NCBI GenBank assembly: GCA_903870815.1
Contig: CAIQEI010000021.1
Span: forward strand, 1-48,559
From: an uncultured Verrucomicrobia subdivision 3 bacterium
Lineage (GTDB): Bacteria; Verrucomicrobiota; Verrucomicrobiia; Limisphaerales; UBA11358
Reading direction: 5' to 3'
DNA length: 48,559 bases
The position numbers and the translations under genes were made by a program. Below the pieces are notes generated by a model, which saw only the letters and a program-made list of their open reading frames with translations, was not told the origin of the DNA and searched no databases. The number at the start of each line of letters is the position of its first letter. The first letter of the stretch is position 1. Positions 25,128 to 45,517 of the stretch are shown in pieces.

Positions 25128-26828
25128 TCATTCCAGCAGCGCCTCGGCGTGTTTCCGTGCCGCCTCGCTCTGGCCGCCGAGCATCCGCGCCAGTTCGGTT
25201 ACGCGTGATTTTTTGTCTAGCAACGTAATCTCGGAAATCGTCCGGCCATTTTTCACCTGCTTGGTCACGACGTAATGCGCATCCGCGGGGGCGGCTACCT
25301 GCGGCAAGTGCGTGATGCAAAACACCTGCCGCTTGGCGGCGATTTGCTTCATCTTCTCGCCGACCGCATTTGCCGTTTCGCCGCCGACGTTGGCGTCCAC
25401 CTCGTCAAAAACCAGCACCGGAATTTCATCCTGGGCGGCGAGCACGGTTTTCAACGCCAACATCACGCGGGCCATTTCGCCGGATGAAGCGATGGCACGC
25501 AGCGGCTTGGCTGGCTCGCCAGGGTTCGGCGCGAACTGGAATTCTACCGTGTCGAATCCAGAGGAGTTGGGAGTTGGCAGATGGGAGTTAGAGTGTCCGT
25601 TCCCCATCTGCCATCTTCCATCTGCCATCTCCTGCTGAATGCCAAATTTGCTTTGCTTGAAGCCCAGTTCTTCCAGTTGCTTACTCACCGCTTTGGCCAG
25701 TAGCGGAATCACTATTTTTCGCGCCGCGGAAAGCTTTTTGCCGGCGCTCAAAATCTCGGCATCGAGTTTATCGAGCGCGGCGTTGAGCCGCGCCAGTTCG
25801 GCGTCACGGCTTTCGAGCGCCGCGAGTTTCTGTTTCGCCTCCTCACCGAAAGCGATGACTTCGGCGAGGGTCGCGCCGTATTTGCGCTTGAGCGCGTGGA
25901 TGAGATTCAACCGCTCCTCCAATTCCGCCAAGCGCGCCGGATCCACGTCCACCTTGTCGGCATAGCGCGAAAGCTCGGTCTGCAATTCGCGCAAAGCTCC
26001 GCCGGCTTGGGCGTGCAGGCCCACCAGATTCTCCGCGCCGGCATCCACGCGCTGAAGCTCCGCCAGCACGCGACCAATCACGCCGGACTGCGTGAGCAAC
26101 GAATTCTCGTTCTCGCTCAAGGCGTCGAGCGCGGCCTGGCTCAGTTGCAGCAGCTTCGCGGCGTTGCTGGCCCGGTTGAATTCCGCCTCGACGGACTTCT
26201 CCTCGTCCGGCTGCAAGCGCGCGCCGGAAATTTCCTGAACCTGAAAGCGCAGCAAATCTAGCTGCTGCGCGTAGGTTTTCTCATCCACGATCAGCGCCGA
26301 TTTCTCCTGTTCCAAAACCGCGTGCCGGCCAACGAGTTCGCCGAAAGCCTCGCGTTCCTTTTCCAATCCACCGAACGCATCAAGAATGACCAACTGCTTC
26401 GCCGGGTGCAGCAGCGACTGGTGGTCGTGCGGGCCATGCATGTCCACCAGCCATTCGCCAATGCCGGCCAGCGTGGCCAGCGTGGTGGCCGACCCATTCA
26501 CAAACTGGCGGTTGGCGCCGGCGCTGGTGAACGTGCGTTTGAGGACAAGCTGATGCTCTTCGCACGGCTCCAAACCGTTCTCCTCCAAAAAACCTTTCAG
26601 CGGCGCCCGCAGTTTCCGGATGTCGAAGACGGCCTCGACCGAGCAGCTTTCCTCGCCGCTGCGAATCAGCGTGCGGTCGGCGCGTTCGCCGAGCACGAGG
26701 TTCAGCGCGCCGATGATGATGGACTTGCCCGCGCCGGTCTCGCCGGTGATGACATTGCAGCCCGGCTGGAGTTCCAGCGTGAGGTCGCTCACCAGGGCGA
26801 GGTTTTTGATGCGCAAGGTCGTCAACAT
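25128..26828 (-). CDS. recN: DNA repair protein RecN
   Basis: An SMC-like ATPase that holds DNA ends during double-strand break repair. The start at 26828 (MLTTLRIKNLALVSDL) is the usual one, giving 566 residues. Walker A GETGAGKSIIIGALNL lies near residue 35, followed by HGPHDHQSLL around 135, two coiled-coil arms (about 150-370), the signature region AIASSGEMARVMLALKT (about 445) and Walker B VFDEVDANVGGET (about 470). Residues 400-423 (EMADGRWQM and on to PTPNSS) do not look like RecN; they are encoded by a repeat element at 25563-25631 that keeps the frame. It falls between the coiled coil and the C-terminal ATPase half, where an extra loop could be tolerated. Confidence 0.94.
   Translation of the reverse strand: MLTTLRIKNLALVSDLTLELQPGCNVITGETGAGKSIIIGALNLVLGERADRTLIRSGEESCSVEAVFDIRKLRAPLKGFLEENGLEPCEEHQLVLKRTFTSAGANRQFVNGSATTLATLAGIGEWLVDMHGPHDHQSLLHPAKQLVILDAFGGLEKEREAFGELVGRHAVLEQEKSALIVDEKTYAQQLDLLRFQVQEISGARLQPDEEKSVEAEFNRASNAAKLLQLSQAALDALSENENSLLTQSGVIGRVLAELQRVDAGAENLVGLHAQAGGALRELQTELSRYADKVDVDPARLAELEERLNLIHALKRKYGATLAEVIAFGEEAKQKLAALESRDAELARLNAALDKLDAEILSAGKKLSAARKIVIPLLAKAVSKQLEELGFKQSKFGIQQEMADGRWQMGNGHSNSHLPTPNSSGFDTVEFQFAPNPGEPAKPLRAIASSGEMARVMLALKTVLAAQDEIPVLVFDEVDANVGGETANAVGEKMKQIAAKRQVFCITHLPQVAAPADAHYVVTKQVKNGRTISEITLLDKKSRVTELARMLGGQSEAARKHAEALLE
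25563..25631. repeat. In-frame heptamer-core-heptamer element inside recN
   Basis: On the plus strand four 7-mers (GGAGTTG, GGAGTTG, GCAGATG, GGAGTTA; 25563-25590) are followed by a 13-nt centre GAGTGTCCGTTCC (25591-25603) and four 7-mers (CCATCTG, CCATCTT, CCATCTG, CCATCTC; 25604-25631). GGCAGATGGG (25576-25585) is the exact inverse of CCCATCTGCC (25603-25612). The whole is 69 nt, a multiple of three, and has no stop in the recN frame. The M16 peptidase holds an element of the same layout. Confidence 0.85.
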
Positions 26829-26840
26829 GGCCAAATTTTG

Positions 26841-27000
26841 AGCCACAGATAAACACAGATGGACACAGATTCAAAAAGGAAAATGCTGGGGACACGAATT
26901 TCACAGATTAACGCGGATTCAATCCGGACAAATCCGGCGGTAAAATTTGTTCGGCGGTGATTTTAGTTGGCTACTTTGCGTCTCTGCGCCTTTGCGTTTA
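26841..27000. repeat. Intergenic mosaic of short-period repeats
   Basis: Three 10-mers in a row share CACAGAT (AGCCACAGAT, AAACACAGAT, GGACACAGAT; 26841-26870). After a break, 26891-26937 continues in the same 10-nt spacing with ACACGAATT, TCACAGATTA, ACGCGGATTC and related words. A last group around 26973-27000 repeats TTTGCG/CTGCG words (CTTTGCGTC, TCTGCGCC, TTTGCGTTT). These words resemble intergenic repeats that I recall from many unrelated bacterial genomes. They fill the divergent gap between recN and the beta-lactamase-fold gene. Confidence 0.7.
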
Positions 27001-32090: not shown

Positions 32091-32382
32091 GCGGTTTCCC
32101 GTTCATTTGTGCGCGTGTCTGGACCATTCCCTGCGGTTTCCGGTTCATTTACGCGCGCGTCCGGACCTCACACTGCGATTTATGCTCCATAAACCGCGGT
32201 TTCCCGACCGTAACCCGCGGTTTACAACCAAAGACTGCGGTATGCGTTACACAAACTGCGGTTTGCGGATGACAAACTGCGGGTAACCAACCCAAACTGC
32301 GGTTAATGCTCCATATACTGCGGTTAGCGTTCCATAAACCGCAGTATTAGCTCCATAAACCGCGGTTTGCCGATGGCAAACT
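32091..32382. repeat. 21-nt periodic palindrome array, about 14 units
   Basis: Units begin with GCGG (or close variants) at 32091, 32112, 32133, 32154, 32175, 32196, 32217, 32237, 32258, 32279, 32299, 32320, 32341 and 32362, so spacing is 21 nt with two 20-nt exceptions. Each junction makes a palindrome near AAACCGCGGTTT (perfect at 32191-32202 and 32357-32368), separated by 8-9 variable bases; CTCCAT or TTCCAT recurs in several spacers. The first four units form a 42-nt two-unit repeat, and a weaker copy extends back to about 32050. The array lies in a 1.1-kb gap between divergent genes (31450-32610); the rest of that gap, apart from the small membrane protein, shows nothing recognisable. 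Confidence 0.9.
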
Positions 32383-41669: not shown

Positions 41670-41800
41670 AACAAATTATAATTTTCGATTTGCGATCGCC
41701 GGATGAACCGTACCGGAATTCTGCCTCGGAATTAAAAAACCGCAATTCACAATTCACACGCGACGGTTGCCGCTGACCCGATTTAAGGTACATTATCGGC

Positions 41801-42964: not shown

Positions 42965-45517
42965 ATGACCAAAGATATTTCCACCATTCCGTCCATTCCG
43001 CCGGGCGTCACACTCACCACGCTCGAAAACGGCCTGACCATCATTGTGCGCGAAGATCACAACGCCCCCGTTGTTTCGGCGCAGGCATGGGCGATGGCGG
43101 GCAGCATCCACGAAGACCGCTGGCTCGGGGCCGGCCTGTCGCACATACTTGAACACATGCTCTTCAAAGGCACGACCAGTCGTCCCGGCAGCCGCATTGA
43201 CCAGGAAGTGCAGGAAGCCGGCGGCTACATGAATGCCTATACGAGCTTTGACCGGACGGTTTATCACATCGACGTGCCGAACACCGGCGCAGCCAAGGCG
43301 ATTGATATTCTTTGCGACATCATGCAGCACGCGACGCTGCCGCCGGACGAGTTGGCGAAGGAAATGGATGTCATCCGCCGCGAAATGGACATGTGCCACG
43401 ACGATCCGGGCCGCCGCGCCAGCCGCCGGCTATTTGAAACCGCCTACACTAAAAACCCGTACCGCTTTACCGTCATTGGTTATCCCGATATTTTCAACGA
43501 GGTGAAACCGGACGACATCCGGAATTACTACACGGAGAAATACGCGCCAAACAACGTCTTCTACGTCGTCGCCGGCGACGTGAAAGCTAACGAGATCGTG
43601 GCACAAATTAAGACCGCCTACGCAAAAAGCAAATCGAAGGCGATGCCGCTGGGCGTGCTGCCGCTGGAACCGAAGCAGACTGCGGCGCGCGAAATCATCG
43701 AGGAGTCACCCGTGGAACTCGGCCATGTGCATTTCGCGTGGCACATTCCCGAACTCCGCCACGCCGACGTGCCGGCGCTGGATGTCCTCGCCGTGCTGCT
43801 GGGCAGCGGCCGCAGCTCGCGTCTTTTCCAGCAGGTGCGCGAGCGCCAGGGCGTCGTGCACCATGTGGATGCCTGGACATACAATCCAGGCTTGCCCGGG
43901 CTTTTTGGCGTCAGCGCCATCGTGGATGGTGGCCAGTTCGAGGCCGCGAACGCCGCCATGCTCGCCGAGATTGAGAAAATAAAATGCCTCTCCGTGTCCG
44001 CCGATGAATTGCACAAGGCCATCAAGCAGTTCATTTCCGCTATGTTGTCCTCGCGGAAGACGATGGAAGGCCAGGCGCAAAACCTCGGCGGCAACTGGCT
44101 GGCGGCAAACGACCTGAATTTCTCCGAGCGTTATCTCGCCGCCGTCAAGCACGTCACCACCCACGACGTCCAGCGCGTGGGCCGCCAGTATCTTACCCCG
44201 GAAAACCGCACGCTTTACGCGCTGCTGCCCGAAGGTGCCGCGCCGAAAGCCCGGGCGGAAATCGAGTCAAACGCCGACCACCCGATTCAGAAAATCGTTT
44301 TACCGAACGGCCTGACCCTGCTGGTGAAGGAGGATCATCGGCTGCCGTTCGTGGAATTTCGCGCCGTATTCAATGGCGGTGTCCTGGCAGAAAACGCCGC
44401 GAACAACGGCACCACGATGCTGCTCGCCAAGATGCTCATCAAGGGGACAGCCACGCGCAGCGCTGAAAAGATCGCGACGGAAATCGAATCCGTCGGCGGA
44501 CACATTGACAGTTACGGCGGCAACAACAGCTTTGGTATCAACGCCGAGGTCTTGAGCGAGGACTTCGCCACCGGCCTGAATTTACTGACGGATGTGATTT
44601 TAAATCCCATTTTTCCCGCCGACGAACTGGAGCGAGAGAAGGAAATCCAGATCGCCGGCATCCGCTCCCGCAAGGACGAGCTGCTCAAAAGCGCGAGCCT
44701 CGCCATGCGCGGCGCATTGTTTGGCGACGCCGGCTATGGGCTAGATTCACTAGGCACCGAGGAATCGGTGGCCAACGTTTCCGTCGCCGGGTTGAAGGAG
44801 TTTCACCAAAGATTGACCACCCCGAACAACAGCGTGCTGGCAATTTTCGGAGATGTGAATGCAGGCGAGGTCAAAGCGGCGATCGAAAAAGCTTTGGGAA
44901 ATTGGAAAATGGGGAAGGACATTCGGCCTTCAACTTTCAACCTTCCACAAACAACGCTTAAACGCGTTGAATTAACCCGCGACAAAAAACAGGCAGTACT
45001 GGTCATCGGTTTTCCCGGCACTACCTTGGTCGACGATGACCGTTACGCGCTCGACCTGTTGCAGGAATGCTGCAGCGACCTCGGCTCACGCCTATTTTTG
45101 CGCATCCGAGAGCAGCTTGGTCTGGCATATTACGTCGGCGCGCAAAATTTCGCCGGCCTCGTGCCGGGCTACTTCGCCTTTTACACCGGCACTGAACCCG
45201 CCAAGGCCGCGCAGGTGGAAGCCGAGTTGTTGAAGGAAGCCGAACTGCTTCGCACCGAAGGTTTGACCGCCGAGGAATTGAAGCGCGCCAAGGCCAAGAT
45301 CATCGGCCAAAAAAAAATCGCGCGCGCCGACTTGGGCAACCTCGCTTCCACCTCTGCGCTCGATGAGCTTTACGGGCTCGGCTGGCAGCGCGCCGAACTC
45401 GATGATGCCAAATATGAGTCCGTGACGCTCGAACACGCCACAACCATTGCACAAAAATATCTTAAGCCCGGCGCGGCGGTCGTAGCAGTGGTGAAACCTG
45501 AAATCAGCCAAACCTGA
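42965..45517 (+). CDS. M16 family zinc metallopeptidase, double-domain
   Basis: An 850-residue protein with two tandem M16 units (about 15-430 and 435-845). The first unit has the zinc site HILEH (His 60, Glu 63, His 64), with the third ligand expected about 75 residues later in KEMDVIRREMD. The second unit (IVLPNGLTLLVKEDHRLPFV) lacks HxxEH, having TTMLLAKMLIKGT, and probably helps close the peptide chamber. No signal peptide is evident, so a cytoplasmic or non-classical place is likely. Residues about 645-662 (GNWKMGKDIRPSTFNLPQ) are encoded by a repeat-like element at 44894-44948. It is convergent with rpoC across a shared hairpin. Confidence 0.9.
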   Translation: MTKDISTIPSIPPGVTLTTLENGLTIIVREDHNAPVVSAQAWAMAGSIHEDRWLGAGLSHILEHMLFKGTTSRPGSRIDQEVQEAGGYMNAYTSFDRTVYHIDVPNTGAAKAIDILCDIMQHATLPPDELAKEMDVIRREMDMCHDDPGRRASRRLFETAYTKNPYRFTVIGYPDIFNEVKPDDIRNYYTEKYAPNNVFYVVAGDVKANEIVAQIKTAYAKSKSKAMPLGVLPLEPKQTAAREIIEESPVELGHVHFAWHIPELRHADVPALDVLAVLLGSGRSSRLFQQVRERQGVVHHVDAWTYNPGLPGLFGVSAIVDGGQFEAANAAMLAEIEKIKCLSVSADELHKAIKQFISAMLSSRKTMEGQAQNLGGNWLAANDLNFSERYLAAVKHVTTHDVQRVGRQYLTPENRTLYALLPEGAAPKARAEIESNADHPIQKIVLPNGLTLLVKEDHRLPFVEFRAVFNGGVLAENAANNGTTMLLAKMLIKGTATRSAEKIATEIESVGGHIDSYGGNNSFGINAEVLSEDFATGLNLLTDVILNPIFPADELEREKEIQIAGIRSRKDELLKSASLAMRGALFGDAGYGLDSLGTEESVANVSVAGLKEFHQRLTTPNNSVLAIFGDVNAGEVKAAIEKALGNWKMGKDIRPSTFNLPQTTLKRVELTRDKKQAVLVIGFPGTTLVDDDRYALDLLQECCSDLGSRLFLRIREQLGLAYYVGAQNFAGLVPGYFAFYTGTEPAKAAQVEAELLKEAELLRTEGLTAEELKRAKAKIIGQKKIARADLGNLASTSALDELYGLGWQRAELDDAKYESVTLEHATTIAQKYLKPGAAVVAVVKPEISQT
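44894..44948. repeat. In-frame heptamer-core-heptamer element inside the M16 gene
   Basis: Three purine-rich 7-mers (TTGGGAA, ATTGGAA, AATGGGG; 44894-44914), a 13-nt centre AAGGACATTCGGC (44915-44927), and three pyrimidine-rich 7-mers (CTTCAAC, TTTCAAC, CTTCCAC; 44928-44948). ATGGGGAAGGACATTC (44909-44924) closely matches ATGGGGAACGGACACTC read on the coding strand of the recN element. The frame is kept with no stop. Confidence 0.78.

Follow-up and report, generated by a model that had tools for sequence, protein, structure and literature searches.

Within an M16 peptidase gene of the 48.6-kb contig analysed here (called the window, and part of a 3.17-Mb draft genome), a segment of 55 nt at 44894-44948 raises the question of which kind of repeated DNA can stand inside the reading frame of a conserved protein. 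It had been described as three heptamers, a 13-nt core and three further heptamers, and thus as a second member of a family first noticed in recN. The quoted sequence was confirmed at this position, in frame within the M16 open reading frame. The plan ascribed to them does not hold, since the left arm consists of native codons and the right arm alone is a real array. The gene and its variable segment are divided as follows.

42965 to 45517, forward strand: M16 peptidase gene of 850 codons with two M16 halves (YfmF/YfmH-like), from the open reading frame.
44894 to 44965, forward strand: hypervariable M16 segment of 72 nt (24 codons), in which many relatives carry heptamer arrays or palindromes (orthologue comparison, model).
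44894 to 44908, forward strand: native conserved codons for (L)GNWK, located where a helix ends, previously taken as left arm, no repeat (same codons in array-free orthologues; model).
44909 to 44926, forward strand: loop sequence ATGGGGAAGGACATTCGG, unalignable and without conserved counterpart, equal to the end of the supposed left arm plus the supposed core (orthologue comparison, core searches).
44927 to 44948, forward strand: heptamer array CCTTCAACTTTCAACCTTCCAC, slightly decayed, about three units of TTCAACC (lag-7 score; comparison with clean TTCAACC arrays of relatives at this loop).

The right side of the segment has a period of 7 nt with a lag-7 score of 8.0 (p 0.004, local dinucleotide shuffle). 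Here, 20 of the 22 bases are identical to (TTCAACC)n. Clean TTCAACC arrays are found in the same M16 loop of seven other species (L004, L011, L015, L017, L021, L025 and L032), among them the sister L004, whose M16 protein is 88% identical to that of the window. One might regard the segment as a mere low-complexity coding loop without any relation to the arrays of the other species. This would fit with the shortness of the array, which comprises about three imperfect units only and whose score is reached by 2 of 2306 same-size windows of the M16 gene in relatives, as well as with its phase, which is shifted by 2 nt against the array of L004. However, the matching bases spell the very word that is present in this loop in related species, and just one other site with at most three mismatches to (TTCAACC)n occurs on both strands of 277 kb of the same genome, which is an array itself. 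A chance resemblance is therefore improbable, and the M16 copy of the window is, judged from its sequence, best read as a slightly decayed heptamer array.

The surroundings of this array were compared in 81 distinct M16 loops of Limisphaerales/Verrucomicrobia orthologues, which comprise the genus and further loci. With a lag-7 score of at least 9 as threshold, period-7 arrays are present in 15 of the 81 loops and absent from all 2285 control windows taken from these genes, and all other lags from 2 to 13 combined yield one case with a score of at least 9 in these loops. The words are diverse (TTCAACC, CATCCAA, AGAATTC, ATTTCAA, GATTTCA, CAAACGC and ATCCACC), and in L012 different words are mixed within one array. 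L030 carries five units of CATCCAA at a place where the sequence of L031 and L085, both close relatives, is unrelated. On the tree, the 15 carriers require at least 13 changes between presence and absence of an array. Furthermore, a complete inverted heptamer hairpin is found in the loop of L092 (z -5.68), and palindromic inserts in that of at least three species (L013, L026 and L029).

Structurally, the M16 loop is placed as a coil between the helix 191-202 and the strand 224-230 of the model (AlphaFold2, 40 orthologues, mean pLDDT 94), of which it is the block of lowest confidence. A simple insertion of the arrays was considered and rejected, since array-bearing loops are no longer than the others (medians of 72 nt with and 75 nt without arrays, p 0.63). 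As the length is unaffected, the array occupies the place of spacer sequence.

The left side of the segment is of a different nature. The supposed left arm TTGGGAAATTGGAAAATGGGG gives p 0.047 at lag 7 and p 0.039 at lag 8 in local shuffles, so that lag 7 has no advantage, and its first 15 nt encode (F/L)GNWK, which is conserved in orthologues without any repeat. The apparent symmetry is thus partly a coincidence of native codons with a real array to their right. A hairpin formed by the M16 segment was rejected as well, as its folding is not clearly above that of shuffled sequences (z -1.07). Clear folding is seen in the recN element, and the following features are located in recN.

25128 to 26846, reverse strand: recN gene of 572 codons with an inverted heptamer element in a variable loop, from the open reading frame.
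25563 to 25630, reverse strand: inverted heptamer element in frame in recN, with a GGCAGAT-type arm, a variable centre and an AACTCCC/CCATCTG-type arm (folding z -4.32, orthologue comparison).

The inverted heptamer array in recN is genuine. Its loop has a base state of 42 nt and carries several kinds of insert among relatives. A fixed GGCAGAT...CCATCT element was also considered for the own genome and rejected, since a search with a spaced pattern yielded few true cases. As separate observations, several different palindromic inserts are found in frame in the recN loop of L035, L037, L038, L040, L043, L048, L050 and L055, and some palindromes of the recN and M16 loops end in GGTAGGG...CCCTACC or GGTGGGGCGAG...CTCGCCCCACC, while the same loops hold heptamer arrays elsewhere. 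A 10-nt tandem repeat (CACAGATAAA/CACAGATGGA) lies at the start of recN (window 26844-26870).

According to the original prediction, recN and M16 each hold one copy of a mobile or duplicating element, defined by a conserved 13-nt core with heptamer arms. The central words of both sites do look alike, and a comparable centre, ATGGGCGAAGACACTC, is present in an insert in uvrC of this genome. Nevertheless, the pattern GGGGAA(N)0-1GGACAYTC was found twice in the whole genome, and both places are those from which it had been built. The relaxed core ATGGGVRARGRCRYTC has 16 matches in 49 genomes (one in the reversed control), mostly in ordinary coding sequence without heptamers, and relaxed core and heptamers come together only in three uvrC orthologues and at the M16 site of the window. 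In addition, not even orthologous recN inserts agree in their centres, nor do the CATCCAA hairpins, and the left arm in M16 is native. The core searches have thus already largely refuted an element with a conserved core, which we regard as very improbable. Two unrelated genes do share a class with a common period of 7 nt, a class that is not defined by a core, and the proposed local duplication of 7-nt words is visible in uvrC and in the mixed array of L012, although not around a conserved centre. Likewise, further copies of the core are absent from the genome as the refuting outcome had it, yet distant M16 proteins have no equal segment, their loop being hypervariable.

Beyond the two genes, period-7 arrays form a class of their own. 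For the own genome, the census is based on 277 kb and pattern searches, which is less than the complete genome. These 277 kb contain 41 arrays at lag 7, compared to 0-8 at lags 4, 5, 6 and 8 and 13 at lag 9, and in 60 kb of the sister genome 16 arrays at lag 7 stand against 0-2 at lags 4, 5, 6, 8 and 9. Lags 14 and 21 are also raised, as multiples of 7. The genes with arrays are recN, uvrC, queG, gluQRS, glyS, rimO, gmk, a trpE/pabB-type gene, a pcrA/uvrD-type helicase and an ABC ATPase in the genome of the window, and bioA, bioF, lnt and phrB in the sister G048. For G015, arrays were found in the genes of RsmB, UbiD, MoeA, RibD, HemW, XseA, Sua5, PAP2-PMT, UvrC, dihydroorotase, EboE and RecG, and twice in that of a Methyltransf_28 methyltransferase; the TTCAACC arrays sampled there lie in open frames in their stop-free orientation. 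Several CATCCAA arrays of G001 and G021 are inverted pairs, each with a different centre, and some of them follow gene ends.

Arrays within genes mostly have about 4-5 units and a length of about 20-36 nt. In the loci retrieved, perfect period-7 runs of at least 18 nt are concentrated at lengths of 18-20, 26-27 and 31-34 nt, with a steep fall above 34 nt. This cut-off may be partly technical, because 19-mer patterns served in part to select the loci and all genomes were assembled from metagenomes. Taken together, the arrays combine an exact 7-nt period with many words, and they lie in frame and without stops in variable loops or linkers of conserved proteins.

Some further repeats were seen beside these arrays. 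Dense period-7 clusters in both orientations are present in L145 (G000 contig C3; 1030-1452, 8758-9117 and 9424-9771) and in L152 (contig C10; 3686-8465), with AAACCTG/CAGGTTT and GTTCGATG-type words and some arrays of up to 100 nt. A run of several arrays with different words extends over the neighbouring bioA and bioF of the sister species G048 (L163, 13571-16363). Within the window, a short intergenic heptamer repeat, CAATTCACAATTCACA, lies at 41743-41758, and tandem repeats of 21 and 42 nt are clustered between genes at 32091-32367.

Orthologous loops carry different words by species, and the number of copies shifts in whole steps. This can be seen in uvrC, where the site has a base state of 12 nt in several species and 36-246 nt in others, and where the arrays of L243 and L244 are 21 nt apart, which corresponds to three units and keeps the frame. 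Arrays of many words occupy the PAP2-PMT linker in about 20 of 30 species; this linker is mostly 54-60 nt long with arrays, a length also found without them. Loops with arrays are longer in recN and uvrC, and not in M16 or the PAP2-PMT linker. At the same place in QueG, the word is ATCTGCC in G000 and AATTTCA in G015. Aside from the arrays, a longer in-frame insert (about ...GEAVPQELQKLVDETSRKVRRG...) is shared by uvrC of L258, L259, L260, L262, L263, L265, L266, L270 and L272, and several species of the genus are without it.

The words themselves link distant loci of one genome. Outside M16, the seven genomes that carry TTCAACC in their M16 loop contain 34, 21, 15, 9, 9, 5 and 0 19-mers of this word, and in the other genomes at most 8 were counted (p 0.0002, with relatedness ignored). 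The value of 0 belongs to G018, which has TTCAACC at M16 and nowhere else by the 19-mer test. For CATCCAA, 15 and 10 copies lie outside M16 in two carriers (p 0.002, again regardless of relatedness). Both tested words are therefore enriched elsewhere in the genomes that bear them at M16. The expectation that carriers of AATCGGA in the PAP2-PMT linker would also lead the counts of this word was borne out weakly; AATCGGA is widespread, and its association with these carriers (p 0.03) likewise ignores relatedness. The TTCAACC 19-mer is present in 25 of 49 genomes of the genus, compared to only 3 of 241 genomes sampled across the phylum, the window's own being included in the latter.

These data bear on pure replication slippage in situ, by which heptamer microsatellites would arise and expand independently in each permissive loop without any copying between loci. 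The step of whole units between L243 and L244, the mixed words inside the array of L012 and the proposal that heptamers favour polymerase slippage (PMC4692102) are in line with such a process. On the contrary, each of the two words recurs at many loci of a genome that are unrelated to one another and is more frequent in the genomes which bear it at M16, and the runs cluster at 26-34 nt and lack the long tail expected of free slippage. Slippage alone accounts for the local changes, not for the shared words, and as the whole explanation it appears rather unlikely.

An artefact of short-read metagenome assembly has to be considered too, since all compared genomes are metagenome assemblies and some contigs break exactly at arrays; for example, the M16 gene of G007 is split at its array (L221/L222). 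However, the arrays in M16 and those inspected in G015 are in frame, whereas errors of a 7-nt unit would break two frames out of three, and independent projects agree. Because the arrays keep the frame, the gain or loss of single units during assembly cannot be common in the inspected genes, and we consider an artefact to be hardly credible.

Therefore, the small and partly decayed M16 array probably belongs to a class of short heptanucleotide arrays that is found throughout the genus inside protein-coding genes and whose members are copied between loci and change locally. We infer the copying from the sharing of words; no pair of donor and recipient loci, junction signature or enzyme came to light. 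Mechanistically, the word of an array would spread to other loci of its genome by events that use a template, with template switching, short exchanges resembling gene conversion, or mobile copies of the hairpin type as candidate routes. The copied array may then expand, contract and mutate locally. Selection would remove copies that break the frame or the fold, leaving survivors in flexible loops and in the stop-free orientation. As far as can be judged from the open frames, the loop with the array is presumably translated and mostly neutral, and a regulatory function would not be necessary.

A stronger version of this idea is that a dedicated or strongly biased process in these Verrucomicrobiota writes the current heptamer words of a genome, as short arrays, into its genes at large, so that old loop sites persist and their words are replaced in concert in each species. 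We put this forward tentatively, as a possibility with less than even chances. If true, there would be repeat families that are conserved in period and site and not in sequence, and conserved proteins would be steadily supplied with new peptide.

Several known systems resemble these arrays in part. The Rickettsia palindromic elements (RPE; Ogata et al., 2000) are stem-loops of 105-146 bp with terminal inverted repeats, which occur between genes as well as within the reading frame of conserved proteins and are apparently tolerated and near neutral (reviewed in PMC2229807). The heptamer arrays share these locations, are open in the reading frame and likewise seem tolerated and near neutral. In contrast, their unit is 7 nt, they span about 20-36 nt in genes, their words differ by species and most coding arrays are non-palindromic and one-sided; a stem-loop of RPE size with terminal inverted repeats and homologous copies is not seen, given the z value of the M16 segment. 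They are best regarded as similar to RPE in effect and not as members of that family.

Closer in unit length are the heptameric simple sequence repeats (STRR-type) of Xanthomonas, Nostoc and Calothrix, which are over-represented in bacteria and have received little detailed study (PMC4692102), and the TAACTGA repeats of Beggiatoaceae (PMC4679880). Both they and the arrays studied here are tandem repeats with a unit of exactly 7 nt that outnumber those of other periods, and both occupy many loci of a genome, vary in their words and at times form inverted pairs. However, those repeats are mainly intergenic (as is the excess in Xanthomonas and Nostoc) with one or few words, whereas the arrays sampled here lie largely inside recognised genes, in frame in conserved ones, with many words that turn over by species at the same loop. 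The tandem repeats of constant size and variable sequence in Bacillus also keep their period while the sequence varies, with several families of the same period per species, but their units are 52 or 20-21 nt and they are mainly discussed as non-coding (PMC8161180). Finally, the recN and M16 loop palindromes of other species, for example those with GGTAGGG...CCCTACC ends, have the look of REP and of GTAG- and CGTC-tagged palindromes (PMC3733652), and unlike REP the heptamer arrays have no fixed palindrome.

The literature searched, which covered few subscription journals, yielded no description of in-frame, word-changing heptamer arrays in Verrucomicrobia and no other case in which these features are combined. 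Repeats within protein genes are usually counter-selected, and the bacterial precedent for in-gene repeats known to us, that of the RPE, consists of a few palindrome families. The in-frame heptamer arrays are a little-described way for repeated DNA to reshape proteins. Dozens of conserved proteins in an environmental group of Verrucomicrobia carry them, with words turning over by species at the same loop. They represent a case of dispersed short-repeat turnover and, as experiments replicated by nature, bear on how conserved enzymes cope with arbitrary peptide. Furthermore, they serve as a practical warning that a single cause at the DNA level can lie behind contig breaks, variable loops and odd segments of low complexity in genomes of this kind.
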